The position numbers were made by a program, and so were the translations under genes. Positions 1,524 through 32,840 of a stretch of 33,702 nt of DNA are shown one piece after another. The DNA is taken from positions 1 to 33,702 of the IMG/VR virus record IMGVR_UViG_3300048556_000020; one strand, given 5' to 3'. Source of the DNA: a virus. The first letter of the stretch is position 1, and the number at the start of each line of letters is the position of its first letter. The notes beneath the pieces were generated by a model, which saw only the letters and a program-made list of their open reading frames with translations, had not been told where the DNA came from and did no database searches.

Positions 1524-1539
1524 TTGTTATAATACTATG
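1524..1539 (+). promoter_or_regulatory. Late-gene motif TTGTTATAATACTATG before the tail chaperone gene
   Basis: The 16-base element ends in the start codon at 1537. It recurs (with C or T at one position) at 9432, 13214 and 31136, and in weaker form at 11036 and 20676, each time before a virion or packaging gene or the fibre accessory gene. It contains TATAAT. It may be a late promoter giving an almost leaderless mRNA, or a strong translation-start context. Confidence 0.5.
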
Positions 1540-2262
1540 AGTAAAATAGATTTAACGATACCATTTAGTTTGGGGCAGATAACACTAGGTCAATATCAGG
1601 ATTATTTGAAGATATTAGATAAGTGGGATAAGGAAGATGAGACGTATCTAAAATTAAAGATACTACAGATATTTTGTAAGATGTCTGCGGAAGATGTACA
1701 GAGGATTAAGCTATCAGAGTTTGAGGATACTATACAACACATAAACAACTTATTTGATGATGACACTAGTAAGTTGGTTAATAGATTTAAGATGACTGGT
1801 AGTGACGGAGAGGGCGGTCAAAGGACTGTTGAGTTTGGTTTTATACCTAAGCTAGATGACATATCTTTTGGGGAGTATATTGATTTAGAGTCCTACATAG
1901 GAGAATGGAAAGATATGCACAAGGCTATGGCTGTTTTATTCAGGCCTATATCAAAACACAGCAGGGGCTTCTACTTAATAGAAGATTACGCTGGGAGTAA
2001 TAAGTATTCAGAGGCTATGAGAGATATGCCACTGAATGTAGCTTTATCGGCTACGGTTTTTTTTTATCGTTTAGGAATAAAATTGCAGAATTATACTCTG
2101 GACTCTTTAGCGAAGCAGATGTCGAAGGCGGAAGCTCAACAAGCATGCAGGCTAACTTTGGGAAAAAGTGGGGTTGGTATCAATCAATACATACACTTGC
2201 TCAAGGAGACGTTAGAAGGATTGACGAAGTTACAGCGACCAGTCTTCATAAGTGCTTTATGA
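1537..2262 (+). CDS. Tail assembly chaperone, short form (G-like, 241 aa)
   Basis: This is the zero-frame product of a lambda G/GT-type pair. Such chaperones coat the tape measure protein during tail assembly and are absent from mature virions. The protein is helical and acidic, and a segment VFFYRLGIKLQNYTLDSLAK resembles the FFxxLGxxLxxxTLxxL stretch I associate with Bacteroidetes phage tail chaperones. The start at 1537 is chosen over 1507 because it completes the recurring TTGTTATAATACTATG element. A GGGAAAA slippery heptamer sits at 2160-2166 in the right phase, giving the longer form described separately. As in other phages, the unshifted form should be the more abundant. It is first in a long structural operon. 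Confidence 0.75.
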   Translation: MSKIDLTIPFSLGQITLGQYQDYLKILDKWDKEDETYLKLKILQIFCKMSAEDVQRIKLSEFEDTIQHINNLFDDDTSKLVNRFKMTGSDGEGGQRTVEFGFIPKLDDISFGEYIDLESYIGEWKDMHKAMAVLFRPISKHSRGFYLIEDYAGSNKYSEAMRDMPLNVALSATVFFYRLGIKLQNYTLDSLAKQMSKAEAQQACRLTLGKSGVGINQYIHLLKETLEGLTKLQRPVFISAL

Positions 2263-2330
2263 TGTTAGAATATGAAAAGGACAAGAATAAGGTTGAGAAC
2301 GCTATGATTAAAAAATCAATGAGAAAATAA
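1537..2330 (+). CDS. Tail assembly chaperone, long form made by -1 frameshift (GT-like, 264 aa)
   Basis: Reading 1537-2166, slipping back one base at GGGAAAA and continuing 2166-2330 gives 210 + 54 = 264 residues. The shifted reading joins to give LGKKWGWYQSIHTLAQGD at the junction; the GKKWGWY-like motif is, from memory, conserved in the C-terminal part of Bacteroidetes phage tail chaperones. The -1 frame has no start of its own with a plausible leader. In lambda the T extension recruits the tail tube protein to the G-coated tape measure, and I infer the same role. A mass-spectrometry peptide spanning the junction would prove it. Confidence 0.7.
2160..2166 (+). promoter_or_regulatory. -1 programmed ribosomal frameshift site GGGAAAA
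   Basis: The heptamer fits X_XXY_YYZ in the zero frame (TTG GGA AAA AGT), so P-site GGA and A-site AAA can re-pair as GGG and AAA. Lambda uses the near-identical GGGAAAG at the same gene pair. I saw no clear downstream pseudoknot by eye. Confidence 0.75.
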
Positions 2331-2333
2331 GAT

Positions 2334-2831
2334 ATGAACTTTTACGAATTAATAGACTTAATTAAGCAACTAATAGGAGACAACGACTTCACCAATAAGA
2401 TTACTTTTGGGGAGCTTGCAGATGTGGACTTGAATAAAGACACGACCTTTCCTTTGTTGCACATAATGCTTGAGCAAGTAACAATACAGCCTTCATCAAT
2501 GGAGTACAGGCTAAACATAATTGCTGCTGATGTTGTAGACAAAATGAATACTGATATAGGTGTTGACGATTTCTATGGAAACGACAACACCCAAGACGTA
2601 ATTAATACACAGCTAAGGGTTACTACGCAGTTAGTAAATGCACTTAGAAGACTAGACTTAGTGGGAGAGAAGTTTACCAGACTTCAGGACGAACCTATAG
2701 CAACACCATTCAAGGAGAGATTCGACAATGAGATTGCTGGCTGGGAAACAACTATAACACTTAAAAAGACACAGGATGGTTCGTTTGGTATTGCAAACCC
2801 ATCTGGTGTAGGCCTGCCTGATTGTACATGA
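2334..2831 (+). CDS. Tail completion or tail terminator-like protein (165 aa)
   Basis: The N-terminal helix (MNFYELIDLIKQLIGD) is followed by a beta-rich core with the pattern ITFGELADVDLNKDTTFPLL, then a helical stretch around DNTQDVINTQLRVTTQLVNA. This arrangement matches, from memory, small virion proteins of Bacteroidetes phages found beside an HK97 gp10-like gene and thought to end the tail tube or join it to the head. The family assignment rests on pattern and context, not on catalytic residues. It starts 3 bases after the chaperone stop and its TGA overlaps the next ATG, so translation is probably coupled. Confidence 0.55.
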   Translation: MNFYELIDLIKQLIGDNDFTNKITFGELADVDLNKDTTFPLLHIMLEQVTIQPSSMEYRLNIIAADVVDKMNTDIGVDDFYGNDNTQDVINTQLRVTTQLVNALRRLDLVGEKFTRLQDEPIATPFKERFDNEIAGWETTITLKKTQDGSFGIANPSGVGLPDCT

Positions 2832-3310
2832 GTTTAGAGCAAAACATAAGAGACGCTCTCGAAAAAATAGGAGAGTATTATGTTGTAGAGCTGAAGAACA
2901 GGCTTGCGGCTGATGATAATGTGGCCTCTAGGGATTTGATAAATAGCATATCATCAAAGCCCATAAGCCAAGAGGCAGTAGTAATAACGGCCAACAGATA
3001 TCTGGAAGCCTTGTCTGACGGAAAGAAGGCAACAAGTAAGGGGCCTTCTCCTGAGATGGTAAGTAGAATTACATCTTGGATGAAGTTTAGAGGTCTTAGA
3101 CCAAGAAACGGAGGTTTAACACCCTCTAGCTATAAGTCTGCATCTTTTGTTATTGCAAGAAGAATTAACAAAACTGGCTGGGCTGGAAGCAGCGTAATAC
3201 AAAGGTCATTCAAGGCAATAGAAGACAAGATTGACATAGAGATTACAAACGCATTTAAAAAAGAATTAGATAGAATTATCGAAGATATAAACAAAGAGCA
3301 AAAGAAATGA
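2828..3310 (+). CDS. HK97 gp10-like head-tail joining protein (160 aa)
   Basis: The protein has an N-terminal helix (SLEQNIRDALEKIGEYYVVE), a small beta region, a central basic loop (GKKATSKGPSPEMVSRITSW, then MKFRGLRPRNGG) and a long C-terminal helix. The GPSPEMVxRIxxWMKxRGLxPR stretch is typical of gp10-like tail completion or head-closure proteins in Bacteroidetes phages. The ATG at 2828 overlaps the upstream TGA (ATGA) and is preferred over TTG at 2822. Its own TGA overlaps the next ATG at 3307. It presumably acts at the head-tail interface. Confidence 0.6.
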   Translation: MSLEQNIRDALEKIGEYYVVELKNRLAADDNVASRDLINSISSKPISQEAVVITANRYLEALSDGKKATSKGPSPEMVSRITSWMKFRGLRPRNGGLTPSSYKSASFVIARRINKTGWAGSSVIQRSFKAIEDKIDIEITNAFKKELDRIIEDINKEQKK

Positions 3311-4800
3311 TAGTAACATACAACAAGGTACTAATAGACATAACAAGCGAGTTTGACACTGGCGACACAATAGTAGTAACTGACTCTGGAGGGAATACGC
3401 TTACTTGGACTTCTCCAGCAGATTATCCAACACCAACTGGAACTGAAACATCTCAGTCGCTTCTGTCTTTTATTAGCTCCTTGTCTAGCGGAGACAATAT
3501 ATCTATAAGCGGTAAAATGCAATTAAGAGCCTATGGTGGCATAACAAACTTTACTAGGGGAAACTTTCTTCTAGGAGATAGACTAATTAGCTTTTCTTCT
3601 GTTGTGGCTGGAGGCTCTAATTCATCAGGTGCTATAACCGCAACAACTGGAACTGTCAATAGGGGGTTTACGAATATACTATCAAGAAGTCCTTATGTAA
3701 TACAAAGCAATCAATCGGCATCAGAGGAGTCTGTTGGATTTGAGCTAGATGTTGACAATAATGAGATTTTCAATTTTGACCCTGCTACTGGATTTAGTAT
3801 TGACTCAACCATAACCTATGTTAAGGGTGTTGCTCTTTCGGATATAAGTCCATTTTCCAGAGATTTTATTCCAAGTGATTTTAATGGAGTTTACAGCACA
3901 AAAAACTCTGCGACTCAAGCAAAATACTCAACATTAATAGCAGACCCTCAAATATACATAGGATTTGACGGATATGGCTATTTTGAGGATGGATTCAATC
4001 CAGAGATAACAAAGGCCCTTATGCAATCCAACACTAACATATCTAAGCTAGACGACTCTCCAGTTAGGGTGCCTGTGCTTAGGGCAGCTACAGAGTCTGT
4101 TCAGTTTAGTTATCAGGGCGAAATGACATACTCTACTCAGGTGGGAACATCTTTGTCTTGTGATGAGCAAATACTTTACGTTAGTGACGTGGTTAGTGGA
4201 TTTGACAGCTTCATGCAAAGAGTTCTTTTAGACGGAGGGGTATTTGAAAATAATTCCTGCATAGAGAACTTTGAGGACGCAAACACAATATACCCTGTAG
4301 ATACAATATACATAACTGGAACTGACGGAACTGTTGAACTTATAACAGTAACAAATGTAGAGGAATGTAAATACGAGCCATACAAGATTACATTCGTAAA
4401 CAAGTTTGGCGCGCTACAAGACATTTGGTTCTATAAAAGGTCTAATTTATCCACAGAGGTAGAGAACGAGCAATACAGGGCTTCTGTGGTTTCTAGTTCT
4501 TTAGACTCGTATGGGGTTCTTACTACTGGCTACAGCACGTCTAGTCATCAGTATAAAAACATATACTCATCAGGAAAGGAGTCATTAGAGCTTAATAGTG
4601 GGTTCTACCCAGAATCTTACAATGAGATATTTAAACAACTTATGCTTAGTGAGGTTACTTGGATTAATTACGACAATAAAACACTTCCAGTAAACATAAA
4701 GACATCATCAATAAAGTACAAGACTCAATTAGACGACAAGTTAATAAACTACAATATAGAAGTTGACTTTGCATTTGACAAGATAAACCTAGCAAATTAA
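3307..4800 (+). CDS. Large virion structural protein, probably tail or tail tip (497 aa)
   Basis: A Ser-, Thr- and Asn-rich, beta-rich protein. The diagnostic stretch is residues ~355-385, with ECKYEPYKITFVNKFGALQD followed by IWFYKR. I associate this ExCxYxPYKxTFVNKFGxLQDxWFxKR motif with large virion proteins of Bacteroidetes siphophages. Their exact role is not settled in my knowledge; position between tail-completion genes and the tape measure suggests a distal tail or baseplate component. It is translationally coupled on both sides (ATGA at 3307, TAATG at 4798-4802). Confidence 0.6.
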   Translation: MIVTYNKVLIDITSEFDTGDTIVVTDSGGNTLTWTSPADYPTPTGTETSQSLLSFISSLSSGDNISISGKMQLRAYGGITNFTRGNFLLGDRLISFSSVVAGGSNSSGAITATTGTVNRGFTNILSRSPYVIQSNQSASEESVGFELDVDNNEIFNFDPATGFSIDSTITYVKGVALSDISPFSRDFIPSDFNGVYSTKNSATQAKYSTLIADPQIYIGFDGYGYFEDGFNPEITKALMQSNTNISKLDDSPVRVPVLRAATESVQFSYQGEMTYSTQVGTSLSCDEQILYVSDVVSGFDSFMQRVLLDGGVFENNSCIENFEDANTIYPVDTIYITGTDGTVELITVTNVEECKYEPYKITFVNKFGALQDIWFYKRSNLSTEVENEQYRASVVSSSLDSYGVLTTGYSTSSHQYKNIYSSGKESLELNSGFYPESYNEIFKQLMLSEVTWINYDNKTLPVNIKTSSIKYKTQLDDKLINYNIEVDFAFDKINLAN

Positions 4801-6992
4801 TGAGAAGACAGGTAGAATTATACATAAAGAAAGACAACGAATCAGGCACAGGTTATGAAAGAGTTGATTTGTTTGACTTTGAGGACATCAACATAAACAA
4901 CTCTATAAAAGACGCTAGAGACATTGGAAAGGTGTTTACGGAGTTTACTCAAGAGTTTAAAGTTCCTGCATCTAAAAACAATAACAAGCTTTTTTCTCAC
5001 TACTACAACTGGGATATATCAGTAGGTGGATTTGACGCTAGACTGAAAGTACCTGCACTGATAAAAATAAATGGTGTTGATTACAAAAAGGGTCGTTTAA
5101 CATTAAAGGGGTCAGCTCTTAACAAGAACAGAGCTAAGAACTATAGTGTTATATTCTACGGAGAAACAGTGAGTCTTAAGTCTTTGATTTCTGATGACAA
5201 GCTAAAAGATTTGAGTGCTACTTACTTGAATCAGTTTGAACTTGAGTACACTAGTTTAAGTGTTAGAAACGCCTTTATAAATGGATATAATTTAAGCGGT
5301 GGTTCTTTAGTATTAAATACTGGAACTGACGCTGGAGACCTGTGTGCTCCATTTATAAGTGCGCAAAACTACTACTTCTACGACAGCACAAATGGTGGAT
5401 TAAATCCAATAGAAGGTGCTAGCGAGTCTAGGAATGTATCGACTACCGCAACAACGACCCCAAGAGGGGTCACGTATTCAGACTTAAAGTTTGGAATAAG
5501 GGTATATCATATAATAAAAGCAATAGAAGAAACTTATGGAATTACATTCAGCACAGACTTCTTCTCTACAACAAATTTAGATTTCTATGATTTATATTTA
5601 TTTTTAAGCAAAGAAAAAGGAGGATATGCTGAAGAGGGTGGTACTTTAGTAACAGATATTGACGATTTTCAGCTAGATAGCGGTAATGACGCTAGGCCTA
5701 TGTATATTTATTACTCGTTTCAATACCCTCGTTTTATTTCTCAATTTTATGATATAACATATACTGTTACAACTCCATTTCCTAGCGCAAATTATACTGT
5801 TAAAGTTATAGATACAACAAACAATGTCGAGTATTTTAACTCAACTGGAGGTGGAACTAGCACTACTTTTGATTTTAGAGTGCAAGCAAGTTTTAATACT
5901 AGTTATTATCCAACTTTAGAGTTTGTTATTCAAGGAGAGAATGTTGGCAGTTTCGGTCAAGACCTAGTAATAAAGAAGACTACAGTAGTTAGTGGGGTTT
6001 CTAGTACGGAAGAGACATCTGAATATTCTCTTGCGTCTCTAGGCTCAAATAACTTTAACGTAGTTGGCAATATGCCAGACATAAAAGTGATAGACTTTCT
6101 TACATCACTGTTTAAGACCTTTAATCTGGTGGCATATTATGATAATGAAAAGATAAACGTAAAGACTCTTGTTGATTATTACGACAACGGACAATCAATA
6201 GACTTGACAGACTATGTAGATAACAATGTTGCAAACCTGAACAGGACAAACTTATATTCTACTATAAACTTCGAGTTTGAGAAGCCAAGTACATTTGCTG
6301 TGCTTAACTCCAATGAAATAACTTCTGATGAGTTTGGTAATGAAAAGATGAATAATTTAAGTCAAAACCCAGAGATATTTAGCACACTAGCATTTGACGG
6401 AGGAACTTACAACGTCAAGAATAAGTTTGAGAAAATAATGTACGAGAGAATGACAAACCAAACAGGAGGCGCAAATACAAATGTTGGCTGGGGTTGGCTT
6501 GTAAACAAAGACCAAGAATCTGTTTTAACTAAGCCTATACTTTTTTACGGCATAAAACAGCAATTAAGTTCAGCTCCATCAGGAAACACTCCTCCTGTAC
6601 TAATCTCATTTGACAACTTAGATGGAACATACACCAGCCTGACAAGATACATAAGAGCATCTAATACGAGGTCTCACTACAGTGGCTTGAGCTTTGTAGA
6701 AGCTCAGTCAATAAACTTCGGAAGTGAGTTTGATGAGTTCCATCAAGTAGAAAACACAACTAGCTTGTTTAAAACATACTATGAAGAGTATGTTGAAGAC
6801 ATATACAACAGAAGGTCAAGAATACTAAAGGTAAAAGCATTTCTGCCAGTAAACGTAATACTCAAGATGACTTTAGATGACGAGGTTACTATAGGCAACA
6901 GACTGTACGGAATAAACAAGATGAAGCTAAATTTGAACACAGGTAAGGCTGATTTAGAGCTAATGACAAGAACCGCAAGTAAACTAAGTTAA
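4800..6992 (+). CDS. Large virion structural protein, putative tail tip/baseplate component (730 aa)
   Basis: The N terminus reads MRRQVELYIKKDNESGTGYE, followed by SIKDARDIGKVFTEFTQEFK, VPASKNNNKLFSHYYNWDIS and a GGFDARLKVPALIKINGVDY stretch. This block is characteristic of a large virion protein family of Bacteroidetes siphophages that I recognise by pattern but whose biochemical role I cannot name. The central part is beta-rich and Thr/Ser-rich, possibly carrying adhesion domains; the C terminus returns to a mixed fold (RRSRILKVKAFLPVNVILKM). Gene order after the 497-residue protein and before the tape measure supports a tail role. Start overlaps the previous stop as TAATG. Confidence 0.6.
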   Translation: MRRQVELYIKKDNESGTGYERVDLFDFEDININNSIKDARDIGKVFTEFTQEFKVPASKNNNKLFSHYYNWDISVGGFDARLKVPALIKINGVDYKKGRLTLKGSALNKNRAKNYSVIFYGETVSLKSLISDDKLKDLSATYLNQFELEYTSLSVRNAFINGYNLSGGSLVLNTGTDAGDLCAPFISAQNYYFYDSTNGGLNPIEGASESRNVSTTATTTPRGVTYSDLKFGIRVYHIIKAIEETYGITFSTDFFSTTNLDFYDLYLFLSKEKGGYAEEGGTLVTDIDDFQLDSGNDARPMYIYYSFQYPRFISQFYDITYTVTTPFPSANYTVKVIDTTNNVEYFNSTGGGTSTTFDFRVQASFNTSYYPTLEFVIQGENVGSFGQDLVIKKTTVVSGVSSTEETSEYSLASLGSNNFNVVGNMPDIKVIDFLTSLFKTFNLVAYYDNEKINVKTLVDYYDNGQSIDLTDYVDNNVANLNRTNLYSTINFEFEKPSTFAVLNSNEITSDEFGNEKMNNLSQNPEIFSTLAFDGGTYNVKNKFEKIMYERMTNQTGGANTNVGWGWLVNKDQESVLTKPILFYGIKQQLSSAPSGNTPPVLISFDNLDGTYTSLTRYIRASNTRSHYSGLSFVEAQSINFGSEFDEFHQVENTTSLFKTYYEEYVEDIYNRRSRILKVKAFLPVNVILKMTLDDEVTIGNRLYGINKMKLNLNTGKADLELMTRTASKLS

Positions 6993-6993
6993 T

Positions 6994-7134
6994 ATGGAAT
7001 CATTAAAGGCATTAATAGAACTCTTAGACTCTGATGACTTCTTGGTAGGAGACGAGGACATAGATATAGCAAAAGGAAAATATAAAAGACCAGAAAGCTG
7101 GAAAGAATTTAGAAACATACTAAAACGTAAGTAA
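6994..7134 (+). CDS. Small acidic protein upstream of the tape measure (46 aa)
   Basis: ATG at 6994 is one base after the previous stop; TAA at 7132-7134 overlaps the tape measure ATG (TAATG). The product (MESLKALIELLDSDDFLVGD at its start) has an amphipathic helix, an acidic middle and a basic tail ending in NILKRK. The tight coupling on both sides argues that it is translated. It may be a small tail-assembly factor, but only position supports that. Confidence 0.6.
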   Translation: MESLKALIELLDSDDFLVGDEDIDIAKGKYKRPESWKEFRNILKRK

Positions 7135-9413
7135 TGGCAGAACAAAAAATAGACATTAAAATACAAATAAATAAAGACGCAAGCGTAAGCATAAAGTCTT
7201 TGTCTAAGGAGTTTGGAAACATAAAGGTATCAGCCAAAGATGCTTCTATGGCAGCTAAACAACTTGGTGTTGACATTCAGAAGATTAAAGCTGGAGGAAA
7301 CGTAAGTGTTGTTGCAAAAGACTTCACTAAGCTAAGAGACGCTATGTCTGGAGCTTCTGCTGCTAGTGGAGGTGCTACAGCATCTGTCCTTGAACTTGGT
7401 CGTGTTATATCAGATGCACCCTATGGAATACGAGGTGTGGCAAACAACTTGCAACAGTTAGCCTCTAACTTTGCATTTATGGCAAAACAGGCTGGTGGTG
7501 CAGGTGCAGCTATGAAGGCTATAGGTTCTGCATTAATGGGGCCTTTAGGTATATTAATAGCAGTTCAAACTGTAATAGCCGTTTTAGACCATTTTTCTGG
7601 TAAAATGGGAGAAGTTAAAAACGAGCTGGGAGAGCTAGAGGCTCAGGGTGTTACCGCTAACGTAATGAAGCTTCATCTTCTTAGAGAAGCATTAAACGAT
7701 TCTACCGTAGCGATGGAGGATAAGGTGTCGGCATTAAAAGAAGCTGGAACTGAGTTTAGTGAACTAAATGGGTTTATAGACGATGGAACAATAGCTTTAG
7801 ACGCATTTAATGAAAAGGTTGGCACAATGATAATGCGAATGAGAGAGGTTGCATTTGCAAAGGCTGTTTTAAAAGAGACAGAAGAAGTCATGCAAGACTT
7901 TGTTAAGACAGTAGTAAAGGGTGCGGACGTCACTATTACAGACAGATTTCTTGGTATATTTAATCCAGTAGCATCAGGACAGACATTGGCCTCAGCAAGA
8001 TTTGCTAAGGAGGTTTCAGAAATAGAGGGCAAGTACACCAAACTATACGACCTTCTATTAATGAAGCAGAAGGACGGAGATGGAATACTTTTAGAGCATA
8101 TATTTGGCGATTCAAAAAAATCAGGCTCTGGAACAAGAGCAAGAATTTTAAAGCAAAACCTGCTTGACCTTTCTAAATTAATTCAGTCTAATTACGAGAA
8201 GACTTGGAAGTCATCTGAGAAGAATGAGATTGAGCTGATGAAATTAAATGAAGACTTTGAAAGGCAAGATTTAGCAAGAAGAAAGCAGGCTTTTATTGAT
8301 AGACAAGTTCAAAGACACAAAGACTTTGTTGCAAAAGCAAAAACTCAAGAAGAGATAAATCAAGCAGATGAGGTTTTAAGAAAGTCTAAACTTCAAGCAG
8401 AATCTCAATACCAAGAAGCCCTCACCTCTCTAGAGGTAAAGCATACTATGCTTAGGTATCAAAAACAACTTGAACTTCAGCAGAAGTTTGATGAAGAAAT
8501 GTTTAATCAACAACTTATATCTGCCAGAGCAAACGAATCTAGGCTTCAGTCTCTTAGGGCTGGCACAGGTGCAGGGGCCTTAAATAAACCCATGAGTGCT
8601 GTTGGTGCTGAAGATATAGAAGGTCAGAACGAAATGGCCAGACAGAGGATGGCTGCTGAACAGGAAAACTTTGAAAATGACCTAGAAAGAAAGAAAACCA
8701 ACCTTCTAAACGAAGGGTTTAGTCTTCTTGAGGTCGAGCAAATGGTTGCTGGAGAAAGGCACGCATTTCAGATGAGCCAAGCAGAACAAGAGATAGAACT
8801 TGAAAGAAATAAGATTGAAGCTAAAAGAAACATAAATCAAGAATATGTTTCTTGGGTTCAAGGTCTTAGCAGCGTATTTAAAAGCATAGCAGGAGAAAAC
8901 GAAGCACTTGCTACAGCAGCACTAGTTTTAGAAAAGGGTTCTGCTATTGCAAATGTAGTAATATCAACTCAAGCAGCTAATGCAAAGATTACGGCTAACA
9001 TGCTTGAGGAACAGGCTGGTTATAGAGCAAGTGCTGGACTTTATTCTGCTGTACCAGTAGTAGCTGCTGGGTTTGAGGCTCAGGCCGTAATGGCTGGAGT
9101 AATGGGTAAAAAGAGAATACTCAAAAACAATATTGGAGCAGGTATATCTATTGCTAAGATTGCAGCTACAACCTTGCAGTCTAGAGGCGGAGCTTCTGGT
9201 GGCGGCGGAGGCGGAGGAGAAGGAGGCGGAGGCGGAAGAACCTTTGACTTCAACCTTGTTGGCTCTACAGGACAAGACCAATTAGCACAGGCTGTTGGAG
9301 GTCAATTTAGCCAAGGCCCTGTTCAAGCTTATGTTGTAAGTTCACAGATGACATCACAACAACAGTTAGACAACATAATAGAGTCTGACGCTACATTTGG
9401 CGGAGACAATTAG
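7134..9413 (+). CDS. Tail tape measure protein (759 aa)
   Basis: The longest helical protein of the structural region. N-terminal ~75 residues are mixed charged, then an Ala/Gly-rich hydrophobic segment (~120-155, around ALMGPLGILIAVQTVIAVLD) typical of tape measures that insert in membranes during DNA entry. Residues ~350-560 are a long, charged, Gln/Glu/Lys-rich coiled-coil region, followed by a second Ala-rich hydrophobic part and a Gly-rich tract at ~685-702. At about 1.5 Angstrom per residue the tail would be of the order of 110 nm, assuming the whole chain is used. The Gly tract and the C-terminal tail after it resemble other Bacteroidetes phage tape measures. Confidence 0.85.
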   Translation: MAEQKIDIKIQINKDASVSIKSLSKEFGNIKVSAKDASMAAKQLGVDIQKIKAGGNVSVVAKDFTKLRDAMSGASAASGGATASVLELGRVISDAPYGIRGVANNLQQLASNFAFMAKQAGGAGAAMKAIGSALMGPLGILIAVQTVIAVLDHFSGKMGEVKNELGELEAQGVTANVMKLHLLREALNDSTVAMEDKVSALKEAGTEFSELNGFIDDGTIALDAFNEKVGTMIMRMREVAFAKAVLKETEEVMQDFVKTVVKGADVTITDRFLGIFNPVASGQTLASARFAKEVSEIEGKYTKLYDLLLMKQKDGDGILLEHIFGDSKKSGSGTRARILKQNLLDLSKLIQSNYEKTWKSSEKNEIELMKLNEDFERQDLARRKQAFIDRQVQRHKDFVAKAKTQEEINQADEVLRKSKLQAESQYQEALTSLEVKHTMLRYQKQLELQQKFDEEMFNQQLISARANESRLQSLRAGTGAGALNKPMSAVGAEDIEGQNEMARQRMAAEQENFENDLERKKTNLLNEGFSLLEVEQMVAGERHAFQMSQAEQEIELERNKIEAKRNINQEYVSWVQGLSSVFKSIAGENEALATAALVLEKGSAIANVVISTQAANAKITANMLEEQAGYRASAGLYSAVPVVAAGFEAQAVMAGVMGKKRILKNNIGAGISIAKIAATTLQSRGGASGGGGGGGEGGGGGRTFDFNLVGSTGQDQLAQAVGGQFSQGPVQAYVVSSQMTSQQQLDNIIESDATFGGDN

Positions 9414-16645: not shown

Positions 16646-16764
16646 TGAAAGAGAAAAAGATAAACATATACAAGCCTAAAAAGGTCAATGTTGTTAAGCT
16701 AAAGAAATACCTTAGCAAGATACAATTAGAGGATAGTATATTAGGACAAATAAATAAGAAATGA
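16645..16764 (+). CDS. Tiny lysine-rich protein between adaptor and fibre genes (39 aa)
   Basis: ATG at 16645 overlaps the adaptor stop (TAATG) and TGA at 16762-16764 overlaps the fibre gene start (ATGA). The product is strongly basic (MKEKKINIYKPKKVNVVKLK at its start) with a short helical tail. Coupling at both ends is the main evidence that it is real. Function unknown. Confidence 0.55.
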   Translation: MKEKKINIYKPKKVNVVKLKKYLSKIQLEDSILGQINKK

Positions 16765-18029
16765 GTAATCCAAAGTTAGCATTAATACCAAGCGGATATA
16801 AAGGTGGGAGTACACCAAAGGTGTATTCTATATTGCCTAATGATGGTAGTGGAGATTTCACTTTTGATAGGGATACAGTAGCCACACGAGTACGCAAGGA
16901 TGGACTTATTGAAGAGGTCGCAGCAGACATACCAAGACTTGATTGGTTAAACTCTAACTGTCCGAGTTTACTTTTAGAGCCATCCAGAACAAATCTTGCA
17001 CACTATTCAGAGCAAATAGATAATGCTTATTGGATAAAAACTGGCGTTAGCGTTACTGCAAATCAAACAACTTCTCCAGATGGAACTTTAAGTGCCGACA
17101 AACTACAAAGAACATCAACTGGCTCAGATAGGTTGGCTAAACTCTTCACTAAGACTGCTTCTGAAGTTCAAAACTTTACGCTTTCTGTATTTGTGAAAAA
17201 AGGAGATAGCAGATATGCTACATTGGCTTTACAAGGAGATTACCCAGACAGAGCCTATTTACAATATGACTTTGAACAAGGTACAATAAACGCTTCTATT
17301 GATTTTGTAGATTTCACAATATTAAGCACAAAGGCTGAAAACTACAATAACGGATGGGTAAGGTTGTCTTTTGCAGTATCAACAGATGCTCACAGTTCTA
17401 TTACTGTTTTAATATCTCCAAAAAATGATGTAGTTACAACTGCTTTGACTGATAGTTCAGATAGTTGTTTTATGTATGTATGGGGTATTCAATTAGAAAA
17501 AGACACTTATTCAACTTCGTACATAAAAACAGAGGCCAGTTCAGGAACAAGAAACGCAGATGTTTGTACAGATGCTGGAGATGTAAATGTATTCAACAGT
17601 TTAGAAGGTGTATTATATGCAGAGATAAGTGTGTTATCTGATGACTTAACAAATAGAGAAATATCATTAAATGACGGCACAACAGCTAATAGAGTATCAT
17701 TATTTTACCAAGGTGCTTCAAATAGAATTAGAGCAGAAATAAAAAAAGATACTAATGTTACAATATTTAATTCTTTTACAACAAATTATGATGAAAAAAA
17801 TATAAATAAAATAGCTATAAAATATAAATCTTCTGATTACTCATTTTATATTAATGGAACTAAAATTGGGTCATCTACAACAACAAATTCTTTTAATGCT
17901 AATACTTTAAATACATTGGATTTTAGAAGACCTATTCATTCTTCTACTATTTTCTATGGAAGATGCAAAGATTTAAGATATTACGATACAGCATTAACAG
18001 ATGCACAATTAACAGAATTAACAACATAA
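16761..18029 (+). CDS. Tail fibre/receptor-binding protein with LamG-like C-terminal domain (422 aa)
   Basis: N-terminal residues ~20-80 carry a block seen in Bacteroidetes phage fibres: FTFDRDTVATRVRKDGLIEE followed by IPRLDW and SLLLEPSRTNLAHYSEQ. Residues ~85-255 form a beta-sandwich domain with carbohydrate-binding character (LSVFVKKGDSRYATL; YNNGWVRLSFAVSTD). Residues ~265-422 (from RNADVCTDAGD; GVLYAEISVL; SFYINGTKIG; DTALTDAQLTELTT) resemble a concanavalin/LamG-like fold. It is paralogous to the next gene over the N-terminal block, the sandwich and the C-terminal domain. Likely exposed at the tail end and involved in glycan recognition. Confidence 0.7.
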   Translation: MSNPKLALIPSGYKGGSTPKVYSILPNDGSGDFTFDRDTVATRVRKDGLIEEVAADIPRLDWLNSNCPSLLLEPSRTNLAHYSEQIDNAYWIKTGVSVTANQTTSPDGTLSADKLQRTSTGSDRLAKLFTKTASEVQNFTLSVFVKKGDSRYATLALQGDYPDRAYLQYDFEQGTINASIDFVDFTILSTKAENYNNGWVRLSFAVSTDAHSSITVLISPKNDVVTTALTDSSDSCFMYVWGIQLEKDTYSTSYIKTEASSGTRNADVCTDAGDVNVFNSLEGVLYAEISVLSDDLTNREISLNDGTTANRVSLFYQGASNRIRAEIKKDTNVTIFNSFTTNYDEKNINKIAIKYKSSDYSFYINGTKIGSSTTTNSFNANTLNTLDFRRPIHSSTIFYGRCKDLRYYDTALTDAQLTELTT

Positions 18030-18030
18030 T

Positions 18031-20583
18031 ATGGCAAACGAAATATATCATAGAAGTAATTGGGGTAATGCAGTAAATGATAAATACTGGGCAGATGTTT
18101 ACGAGAAATATTCTGCTACTAATAAAATGTATATACGTTCAGACTATTACGAGAATAGCAACGAAACAGACAAACTAATGGCTGATATATACCCAAAGCC
18201 AAGTATATTACTAACACCTACTGCATACGATAATGGCTCTTTACATAGTGTTAAGCCTGTTCAATCTTTAGGTAGTGAATTAGTTACTAATGGTGGATTT
18301 GACACAGATAGTAATTGGAATAAAACAAACGCTACTATATCTAATGGAGTAGCTACTGTAACAGTAACTGGTGGTGGTTATTCTGCTATTACACAAAGCG
18401 TTACATATGTAAGTGGAAAAAAATATAGAGTTACTGCTCAAATACAAGGATTAAGCGGGTCAAGTGGTAAACAAATTAGATTTCAAGATAATGGTAGTAA
18501 TTTAGGTGGATTAACTTTATCAAATGGAATAATTACACTTGATGAAACTTTGCAAAATATTGAAATTACTTGGACTGCTAATAGTAATTCAAATAATATT
18601 GTAATAGCAAGAAATGGAAGTGGCGATTATAGTTGGACTATTGACAACGTATCAGTAAAAGAAGTAATAGACGCAGACTTTGACTTTACCAGAGGCTCAT
18701 CAGCCACAAGAGTAAACGAAAAAGGACTTATAGAAGATGTACAGATATTAAGTGGGAATTTAGTACAAAACGGAGATTTTGAAGAAGAAGGCTCGGAGTT
18801 AGTTACTAATGGTGATTTTGATACTGATAGTGATTGGAGTAAATATTATGCTGGAGATAATAATTCTATAACAATAGCTAATGGTGTTTTATCTTTTGAT
18901 AGTAATACAAATCAAAATGTCCAGCAAACAATAAGTAGTTCAAATTTAAGTGGATTTTATAAAATAACATATACTATAACTTCTTACACAAGAGGAAATG
19001 CACATTTTTTATTAGGTGGTGGCTCAAATATATATTTAGGTTTTGAAACAGGAACATTTACTAAATACGTTCAAGGTGGTGGTAATACTAATAATTTTGT
19101 TATATATGGTGGAATTTTTGGTCAAGGTGGTGAATTATCAATAGACAACGTATCAGTCAAAGAGGTCGGACAGAATTGGAGTTCTTATGATGGTAATGTT
19201 ATTTTTAAACAAGGTAGCGTTCAAATTGACACAAACGGAGCTGCTTATACAGAATTTAGAGCAGGTAACGATTTTAATTCTCCTGATGCAATTTTAACAA
19301 TAGGTAATAAGTATAGATTAACTTATACTATATCTGAATCAAATAGTGGTGGAATTAAAACAAATTCTTTAATAGCTAATGACACAATATTAACATCTAC
19401 TGTTGGAACTCATACTATTGAAGGTTTAGCAAATTTAACATCATTAGGTATTTTAAGAAATGGAGATACTGATATAACAATAGACAACATATCAGTAATA
19501 GAAATAACAGACGACACAGACTTACCAAGAATAGATTATACAGATGGAACGGGGAGTTTGTTGTTAGAACCGCAGTCAACTAATTTATTTAGTTACAGCC
19601 AAGATTTTACTAATTCTTATTGGCTAAAATCTGCTAATGTTACAGTTACAAATAGTTCAGAATTATCACCAAATGGAGAATTAGATGCTTATTTAATTGA
19701 GTATGACGGAGGTGGTTTTTCTTTTATTAGAGTTAATAGAGGTTCAACTAATACAACATCAACACTTTCTGTTTTTGCTAAAAAAGGAAATTGGAGATAT
19801 TTAGGTTTTAGAAATTTTCAAACTTCAGGAAACGACCATACTGTTTTTGATTTTGACACAGAAACTTTTTCAAATATTGCAAGTGTACAAAATGCTTCTT
19901 TTGAAATTTTTCCTAATGGTTGGTATAGAATTAAAGTAAATCAACCTTCGCCGTCAAGTAATCCATATCTTGGCTTTGCATTAACAAACTCTACTGGAAC
20001 AGAATCAAACCCTACGGGTGGTCAAGTAGCTAATGTACATTTATTTGGCGCACAAACAGAAGAACTATCATACGCAACTTCTTACATACCAACAAGCGGA
20101 AGCACCGTTACAAGATTAGCTGATGTATGCAACAATGCTGGTAGTAGTGATTTAATAAATTCAACAGAGGGAGTTTTATATGCGGAGATAGCTGCACTTG
20201 GTAATCAAGGCACGGCAAGAGAGATTACAATAAATGATGGAACTACTAATAATAGAGTGATTATTTCTTACAATGTTTATAACCAAATAAGAATTAATTA
20301 CAGAAATTCATCATCTAATATATTTGACCAATTAATTAACTCTACAATTACTGACTTTCATAAAATCGCTGTAAAATGGAAAGTTAATGATTTTAGTTTT
20401 TATTTAGATGGAAACGAAATAGCATCAAGTTCAAGTGGCTCTGTTATACCTGCTAACACTTTAACAACATTAAGCTTTGATGATGGAGGTGGCGGCTACA
20501 ACTTTGAAGGAAAAGTTAAAACAGTTGCAGTATTTAAAGAAGCACTAACAGACGAACAACTACAAAAATTAACACAAGTGTAG
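18031..20583 (+). CDS. Large tail fibre/receptor-binding protein with tandem carbohydrate-binding-like repeats (850 aa)
   Basis: Three repeats of ~110-135 residues, each ending in the motif IDN[VI]SVxE[VI], occupy ~83-212, ~247-379 and ~380-492. The first two begin ELVTNGxFDTDSxW, as in CBM4/9-like modules. A split copy of the paralogue's N-terminal block surrounds repeats 2 and 3: FDFTRGSSATRVNEKGLIED at ~218-236, then PRIDYTDGTGSLLLEPQSTN at ~499-518. The C terminus (~690-850) matches the LamG-like domain of the 422-residue paralogue (ADVCNNAGS; GVLYAEIAAL; DEQLQKLT). The gene looks more AT-rich than the head genes, which suggests domain acquisition. Probable role: host receptor or capsule binding. 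Confidence 0.7.
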   Translation: MANEIYHRSNWGNAVNDKYWADVYEKYSATNKMYIRSDYYENSNETDKLMADIYPKPSILLTPTAYDNGSLHSVKPVQSLGSELVTNGGFDTDSNWNKTNATISNGVATVTVTGGGYSAITQSVTYVSGKKYRVTAQIQGLSGSSGKQIRFQDNGSNLGGLTLSNGIITLDETLQNIEITWTANSNSNNIVIARNGSGDYSWTIDNVSVKEVIDADFDFTRGSSATRVNEKGLIEDVQILSGNLVQNGDFEEEGSELVTNGDFDTDSDWSKYYAGDNNSITIANGVLSFDSNTNQNVQQTISSSNLSGFYKITYTITSYTRGNAHFLLGGGSNIYLGFETGTFTKYVQGGGNTNNFVIYGGIFGQGGELSIDNVSVKEVGQNWSSYDGNVIFKQGSVQIDTNGAAYTEFRAGNDFNSPDAILTIGNKYRLTYTISESNSGGIKTNSLIANDTILTSTVGTHTIEGLANLTSLGILRNGDTDITIDNISVIEITDDTDLPRIDYTDGTGSLLLEPQSTNLFSYSQDFTNSYWLKSANVTVTNSSELSPNGELDAYLIEYDGGGFSFIRVNRGSTNTTSTLSVFAKKGNWRYLGFRNFQTSGNDHTVFDFDTETFSNIASVQNASFEIFPNGWYRIKVNQPSPSSNPYLGFALTNSTGTESNPTGGQVANVHLFGAQTEELSYATSYIPTSGSTVTRLADVCNNAGSSDLINSTEGVLYAEIAALGNQGTAREITINDGTTNNRVIISYNVYNQIRINYRNSSSNIFDQLINSTITDFHKIAVKWKVNDFSFYLDGNEIASSSSGSVIPANTLTTLSFDDGGGGYNFEGKVKTVAVFKEALTDEQLQKLTQV

Positions 20584-31151: not shown

Positions 31152-31541
31152 AGTAGACATAAGAAATCAGAGGAGACCTCTAAGAACGATGGCAGGAAGT
31201 ATAATAAGAGGTTAGCACCAAAGCCTATATCTACAAAGGACAAGATGATTAAGCCTGCTAGAACTACAAAGGCTAAGAAAGACAGGATAGCTTCCTATGC
31301 CGTTTCAGCTATGAAAGAAGTATTCGGCAGTGAGAAGGATGCTTTTATACACATGGCAGAACTAGCCAAGAAGAACTTTAACCAGATGAAGTTGCTTATG
31401 GAGTATGCTTATGGTAAGCCATCAGATAGTATAAACTCAGACAGCAAGAAGAAAACCAAGTCTGCACCTACAATTAACTTTGTTATGAATAATCAACAGC
31501 CTCAGATTGATAATACTATTGACATAGAGACAGAGGAATGA
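31149..31541 (+). CDS. terS: Terminase small subunit-like protein (130 aa)
   Basis: Short, basic N-terminal half (MSRHKKSEETSKNDGRKYNK, then TKAKKDRIASYA) and a helical middle with MKEVFGSEKDAFIHMAELAK and LLMEYAYGKP. The pattern MKEVFGSExxAFxHxAxxAKKxFNxxxLLxEYAYGK is characteristic, in my recall, of Bacteroidetes phage small terminases. The subunit recognises the packaging site and stimulates the ATPase. It overlaps terL by 4 bases (ATGA). Confidence 0.7.
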   Translation: MSRHKKSEETSKNDGRKYNKRLAPKPISTKDKMIKPARTTKAKKDRIASYAVSAMKEVFGSEKDAFIHMAELAKKNFNQMKLLMEYAYGKPSDSINSDSKKKTKSAPTINFVMNNQQPQIDNTIDIETEE

Positions 31542-32752
31542 AAAACTCAATACAATTAAATGACAAGTATGTACCTCTTTTTACTGACAAATCGAGGTAT
31601 TTTGTTGTTACAGGGGGTCGTGGTTCTGGTAAGTCTTTTGGCGTAAATGTATTCTTACTTAACCTAACATACGAGGCAGGACACAAAGTCCTGTTTACTC
31701 GTTTTACATTAACCTCTGCTGCCGCATCTATTATACCAGAGTTCATTGAGAAGATTGAACTTATGGGAGTTGAGTCAGACTTTAGGATAACAAAGGATGA
31801 GATTATAAATCTAACCACAGGAAGCTCTATTATCTTTAAAGGTATCAGGACATCATCTGGTAACCAAACAGCCGCCCTGAAGTCTCTTAGTGGCGTTACG
31901 ACCTTTGTTCTGGACGAGGCAGAGGAGCTGGTGGACGAGGACACCTTTAGTAAGATTGACTTCTCCATACGTTCTAACACCAAAGCCAACAGGGTTATAT
32001 TAATACTGAATCCAACAACTAAAGAGCATTGGATATATCAGAGGTTCTTTATGTATCCTAACGTGAAAGCTGGTACAAACGGCTCTAAAGCCGATGTAAC
32101 GTACATACACACGACTTTTGAAGATAATAAGGAGAATCTATCAAAAAGTTATTTAGAGCAGTTATACGACCTTAAAAGACGTGATATAGTTAAGTTCGAG
32201 CATCAGATACTTGGTGGCTGGCTAAACAAGGCAGAAGGAACTATAATAACTAACTGGAAGGTAGGACACTTCGTACAGACAGAACTCATGTGTTACGGAC
32301 AGGATTTTGGATTCTCTACAGACATAACCAGTTTAGTAAAGGTGGCTGTGGATAAGGACACCAGAAGTGTTTATGTGAAGCAGATATACGGAAAGACAAA
32401 CCTATCTACTTCAGACATAGCCTACAGAAATAAGACTGAGTGTGGCACAGATTTAATTATCTGTGACTCAGCAGAGCCAAGACTTATATCAGAGCTTAAG
32501 AATATGGGTCTTAACATAAGACCTACAATAAAGAAGAAAGGGTCAATCCTCTCAGGGATTGCCCTAATGCAAGATTACCAGATAATAGTAGACAGGAACT
32601 CTGAGGGTATTATCAGAGAGATAAACAACTATGTTTGGCACGAAAGAAACCAACGTCCAGTTGATAAGTTCAACCACTACATTGATGCGATTAGGTACTC
32701 GCTTATGTATTTACTTCAAGGTGTGAACTCTGGAAAGTATGTAATTAGGTAA
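31538..32752 (+). CDS. terL: Terminase large subunit (404 aa)
   Basis: Packaging ATPase and nuclease. Walker A GGRGSGKS (~26-33), Walker B VLDEAEE (~124-130), then a C-terminal RNase H-like nuclease domain with acidic residues in GQDFGF (D256), IICDSAEP (D310) and HYIDAIRYSLM (D383). The layout resembles PBSX/SPP1-type terminases, which cut by headful packaging from a pac site and give permuted ends. It ends 3 bases before a four-copy repeat array that could hold a packaging or termination signal. Confidence 0.9.
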   Translation: MKNSIQLNDKYVPLFTDKSRYFVVTGGRGSGKSFGVNVFLLNLTYEAGHKVLFTRFTLTSAAASIIPEFIEKIELMGVESDFRITKDEIINLTTGSSIIFKGIRTSSGNQTAALKSLSGVTTFVLDEAEELVDEDTFSKIDFSIRSNTKANRVILILNPTTKEHWIYQRFFMYPNVKAGTNGSKADVTYIHTTFEDNKENLSKSYLEQLYDLKRRDIVKFEHQILGGWLNKAEGTIITNWKVGHFVQTELMCYGQDFGFSTDITSLVKVAVDKDTRSVYVKQIYGKTNLSTSDIAYRNKTECGTDLIICDSAEPRLISELKNMGLNIRPTIKKKGSILSGIALMQDYQIIVDRNSEGIIREINNYVWHERNQRPVDKFNHYIDAIRYSLMYLLQGVNSGKYVIR

Positions 32753-32755
32753 GAC

Positions 32756-32840
32756 GTTTAACATGAGGGGGTATGTTTAATATTATACCCCCCTGTGTTT
32801 AATATGATACCCCCACCATGTTTAATATGAGGGGGGTATC
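32756..32840 (+). repeat. Four GTTTAAYATKA repeats alternating with G and C tracts
   Basis: Copies at 32756, 32775, 32797 and 32820 are separated by GGGGGTAT (32767-32774), ATACCCCC (32785-32792), ATACCCCC (32807-32814) and GGGGGTAT (32832-32839). Two 8-bp stems can form (32767-32792 and 32807-32839), each with the GTTTAAYAT core in its loop. It directly follows terL. It may be a terminator without T tract, a protein-binding array or a packaging site. Confidence 0.75.

Follow-up and report, generated by a model that had tools for sequence, protein, structure and literature searches.

The gene after the terminase: where its frame probably changes

A viral DNA sequence of 33,702 nt (IMG/VR record IMGVR_UViG_3300048556_000020; hereafter, the window) contains an ORF at positions 1507-2262 whose 3' part is overlapped by a second open frame, which raises the question of where, and by what agent, a protein might be read from the first frame into the second. 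An earlier sequence-only reading had placed a lambda-like -1 ribosomal frameshift at the heptamer GGGAAAA (2160-2166, plus strand). The heptamer is indeed present, and ORF 1507-2262 reads it as G GGA AAA; both frames are open there, and GKKWGWYQSI is encoded in the -1 frame where that reading had located it. Comparison with related loci supports a programmed change into the -1 frame that joins the upstream ORF to an extension carrying KWGWY, with both frames open and under selection, and corrects a plausible but wrong slip site. On comparative sequence evidence, the earlier reading had found the right two-frame gene but set the slip about 95 bases too far downstream.

The proposed site of the frame change is a run of nine T's (T9) at 2057-2065 on the plus strand, within frame-0 codons GTT TTT TTT Txx (2056-2067), which read GTT TTT TTT TAT in the window. 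No other T9 or A9 run occurs in the window, against an average of 3.4 in dinucleotide shuffles. The run had been overlooked by the sequence-only reading.

The frame-0 ORF is also open from ATG 1507, but relatives favor a start at ATG 1537, giving a product of 241 amino acids (1537-2262, plus strand; phrog_32199, E 1.3e-14). The open stretch of the -1 frame covers 2004-2330, and the extension beginning at the T-run (2064-2330, plus strand) comprises 88 amino acids, LSFRNKI...KWGWYQSI.... Fusion at the T-run would join 176 residues to these 88 (2064-2327), for a protein of 264 amino acids. This is the length given earlier, and it follows arithmetically from ATG 1537. The proposed fusion sequence did not survive intact, since residues 177-208 (32 residues, from the T-run to GGGAAAA) would read LSFRNKIAELYSGLFSEADVEGGSSTSMQANF and differ from the frame-0 sequence.

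Every comparative test in this analysis supports the frame change. We consider it very probable that the gene is switched into its -1 frame, in a programmed way, at 2057-2065 and yields two C-terminal variants, a judgment that concerns the frame change at the T-run and neither its agent nor the function of the products. When no slip occurs, the 241-amino-acid frame-0 protein would be made; in a fraction of events, slippage on the T-run would lead to the 264-amino-acid protein, ...VFF/LSFRNKI...KWGWYQSI.... The comparative data below establish the site, its direction and conservation, and two-frame selection over about 62 codons; from them we infer that slippage takes place, at some rate and by one of the two agents considered further on.

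Conservation of the T9 run and two-frame selection

The loci compared were the window, 16 viral contigs, the isolate Nonlabens phage P12024L, 80 more viral contigs, 4 Bacteroidota genome contigs, and a further 80 contigs found by searching with the extension; some contigs recur across searches. All 180 junction-bearing loci carry T9 (162 loci) or T10 (18 loci) at the equivalent position, in phase at the frame transition and as an uninterrupted A/T run of at least nine, and all 180 encode the KWGWY extension in the -1 frame. The junction takes 159 distinct sequences among them, and a set of 60 loci share less than 80% identity with one another over 300 nt. Two loci lack the junction, and both end ahead of it. 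Among the 180 relatives' loci, none has the extension fused in-frame to the upstream ORF. Within the viral collection, at least 593 stretches match the gene.

A search pattern blind to the slip, with only the frame-0 amino acids fixed and the wobble bases free, returned 80 loci, at least one of which (L154) appears unrelated, and all 80 had GTTTTTTTTTA, that is, TTT TTT. Elsewhere in these genes, TTC makes up 13.6% of the other Phe codons and GTT only 39% of Val codons. The eighth T of the run (T8, the last base of the T TTT TTT heptamer) is never C in the 180 loci, even though C would be doubly synonymous there in nearly all of them; at other doubly synonymous sites of the overlap, C is found in 29 of 78 cases. 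The +1 frame stops two codons past the run in 53 of 60 diverse loci (window 2066-2074), so that slips in the other direction would terminate almost immediately.

Substitution rates, calculated from 51 disjoint pairs of relatives, locate the start of two-frame coding. At frame-0 third positions the rate is about 0.235 up to codons -10 to -6, then 0.086 in codons -5 to -1, among which the run lies, and 0.05 over the five codons that follow. Second positions of frame 0, equivalent to third positions of the -1 frame, have a mean rate of 0.043 upstream and rates of 0.09-0.22 from about codon 25 onward. Since the wobble rate drops exactly at the run, two-frame coding starts at T9, whereas a shift at GGGAAAA would have prolonged single-frame coding by about 32 codons. 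The overlap (2065-2262, plus strand) spans about 197 nt, with about 62 codons read in both frames. Its frame-0 tail stays open for a median of 62 codons, against a mean of 13.7 expected when the -1 frame is randomized synonymously, and changes that are synonymous in the -1 frame create a frame-0 stop in 0 of 226 cases within the overlap versus 44 of 151 beyond it. The open frame-0 tail and the absence of stop-making changes indicate that purifying selection maintains both tails past the site.

These data bear on three other accounts of the locus. The heptamer GGGAAAA has in its favor that it is in phase, lies where both frames are open, and is one base away from lambda's GGGAAAG. Among the 93 relatives with a readable motif, however, GGGAAA(A/C) occurs in just 11 (GGGAAAA in 9 and GGGAAAC in 2), and GGAAAAA (22), GGAAAAC (15), and GGACAAA (10) are found at the same position; two-frame coding already begins about 95 nt upstream, at the T-run, and the LSFR...LF segment between the T-run and GGGAAAA is conserved in the -1 frame as well as in frame 0. 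We therefore rejected GGGAAAA as the slip site, since it is unconserved and the wobble rate is already low upstream of it; the heptamer, not confirmed as more than a chance occurrence, is read here as Gly-Lys codons, in place of which most of the other loci have different Gly-Lys codons, and the version of events built on it is largely refuted and very improbable. Just as improbable is an account that makes the extension an independent gene, translated from a start codon of its own. The window does offer an in-frame ATG at 2145-2147 (plus strand), and the small gene is listed apart in the annotations of Nonlabens phages P12024L and P12024S. Yet that ATG is replaced in relatives by Ile, Leu, Val, or Ala codons, in 86 of 93 loci the -1 frame has no ATG, GTG, or TTG on the way from the T-run to KWGWY, and conservation of the -1 frame reaches from ATG 2145 back to the T-run. 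The earlier statement that the extension has no start of its own thus holds in substance for the family, whereas the window itself carries this ATG. Still harder to credit is a homopolymer error of sequencing or assembly, or the decay of a gene once in a single frame: nine T's are error-prone in some sequencing methods, but all 180 loci, which come from independent samples, keep an identical phase, and the two-frame selection that kept the frame-0 tail open for 62 codons refutes this account unless that selection is artefactual.

The two Nonlabens phages deserve separate mention, because their annotation shows the extension as a gene of its own, the arrangement that would have spoken against a frame change. 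Both carry a homolog of the gene after the terminase, with the T9 run, annotated as two separate hypothetical proteins (gp40/gp41 in P12024L, gp38/gp39 in P12024S; phrog_32199 / phrog_38404). In P12024L, the T9 run and a -1 frame open into KWGWY connect gp40 with gp41, and the frame-0 tail differs in extending only 25 codons; in P12024S, where T9 alone was checked, the run was confirmed. P12024L gp41 (L018 12522-12689) and P12024S gp39 (L307 828-995) each look like the C-terminal extension of the gene before it, wrongly split off. Given the T9 run and open -1 frame that join both parts (T9 only for P12024S), a mis-split is the most likely source of the separate-gene annotation. By the same comparative evidence, recoding is probable for this widespread "hypothetical" gene, which standard annotation divides into two.

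RNA polymerase or ribosome as the possible slipping agent

The change of frame at T9 could come about in two ways that predict an identical protein: RNA polymerase could add one U at the run, or two tRNA-Phe could slip -1 on U UUU UUU. Bacterial polymerase slips efficiently in vivo on runs of nine A/T (PMC5009743), and A/T runs of such length are selected against in the coding sequences of many genomes (PMC1088944). We lean slightly toward RNA polymerase, because the run is 9 or 10 long everywhere, T8 is never C, and no conserved RNA structure accompanies it; amino-acid constraint alone could hold the first and ninth T, and a ribosomal preference for UUU could hold T8.

A purely ribosomal slip, in which polymerase has no part and the P- and A-site tRNA-Phe shift backward by one base on U UUU UUU, is the strongest competitor, and we give it a substantial chance somewhat short of even. 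The in-phase T TTT TTT obeys the X XXY YYZ rule, -1 frameshifting of a corresponding kind is found widely among the tail assembly genes that long-tailed phages carry (PMC5009743), and the low ratios expected without a stimulator would suit a chaperone pair. What speaks against it is that the Z base, T8, is not once C in 180 loci, although T TTT TTC would satisfy the heptamer rule too and comparable sites often carry C, and that neither a conserved downstream structure nor a consistent Shine-Dalgarno-like sequence was found. No downstream RNA structure emerged as a stimulator (mean z about -0.3 to +0.35), and a Shine-Dalgarno-like stimulator was rejected as inconsistent across loci. The likely hosts belong to the Bacteroidota, in which ribosomes generally do not recognize Shine-Dalgarno sequences (PMC8710568).

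A short hairpin (GTAGC/GCTAC, 2037-2055, plus strand) adjoins the T-run and is clear only in the window and its nearest relatives, including L002. It resembles an intrinsic terminator or a nascent hairpin that stimulates slippage; because it is not kept across the family, a conserved role in either capacity was rejected.

Polymerase slippage at the T-run would resemble the bacterial transcriptional slippage at long A/T runs known from Thermus thermophilus dnaX, IS elements, and Citrobacter rodentium tssM1 (PMC5009743, PMC1088944, PMC4256274) in its homopolymer of at least nine, its lack of conserved structure, and the two product lengths predicted here. It would differ in concerning a phage gene in which selection keeps both tails. 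If polymerase is the slipping agent, a tail-module gene would have reached the lambda-type two-product arrangement through transcription and not translation. In a large, unnamed family of Bacteroidota phages, a tail-module protein pair may be made by polymerase that is programmed to slip at an invariant T9, with about 62 codons read in two frames; to this proposal we give close to, though a little under, an even chance. The literature searched contained no description of this site for phages of Bacteroidota; what is new is the site, the long two-frame overlap, and the possible polymerase slippage.

Gene neighborhood, likely function, and other features of the window

In relatives, the gene order is terminase, the T-run gene, then homologs of the window genes 2334-2831, 2828-3310 (Neck1-like), 3307-4800, and 4800-6992. 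The T-run gene is thus first in the tail module, after the terminase, and not between the major tail protein and tape measure genes. A terminase homolog lies upstream of it in 94 loci. The gene at 2334-2831 (plus strand; phrog_30964) is its conserved downstream neighbor in 153 loci, and that at 2828-3310 (plus strand) encodes a tail completion or Neck1-like protein (phrog_5, E 1.1e-5). In the window, 4800-6992 is followed by the gene at 7134-9413 (plus strand), whose product of 759 amino acids is a probable tape measure protein by sequence character and position, with no confirming family match. Four genes separate it from the T-run gene, so the two are not directly adjacent. The window's terminase large subunit gene (31538-32752, plus strand; Pfam Terminase_3, E 4.6e-31) is near the opposite end, which fits a circular or circularly permuted genome.

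Judging from gene order only, the pair is rather likely to have the role of lambda gpG/gpGT, a tail assembly chaperone with its long form. The chaperone identity assigned by the sequence-only reading is plausible on that basis and gained nothing from homology: no match to a known tail assembly chaperone was found in Pfam, PHROG, NCBIfam, or PDB sequences, which counts as weak evidence since such proteins diverge widely. The likeness to lambda lies in a -1 frame change that would give an N-terminal protein and a longer fusion from a gene in the tail module. The detailed resemblance that had been suggested did not hold. The site is T9 here and GGGAAAG in lambda, about 197 nt of overlap are under two-frame selection here compared with 18 nt from site to stop in lambda, and the gene here does not adjoin the probable tape measure gene. 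Nor was any sequence relation found, as profiles matched neither gpG nor gpT and hhalign gave lambda G and T a probability of about 0.

Searches of the window for Rfam matches and tRNA found none. The sequence GTTTAATATGA (1142-1154, 1223-1241, and 32756-32840) occurs four times in the window, against 0.07 expected from shuffles, together with near copies. The copies mostly precede runs of C or G, and on a circular genome all four would fall in the interval from the terminase stop to the T-run gene; a regulatory or origin-like array of repeats is possible. Finally, the adjacent proteins encoded at 16761-18029 and 18031-20583 have a common C-terminal domain (phrog_5939, phrog_34853) and are possibly duplicated tail fiber or receptor-binding proteins.
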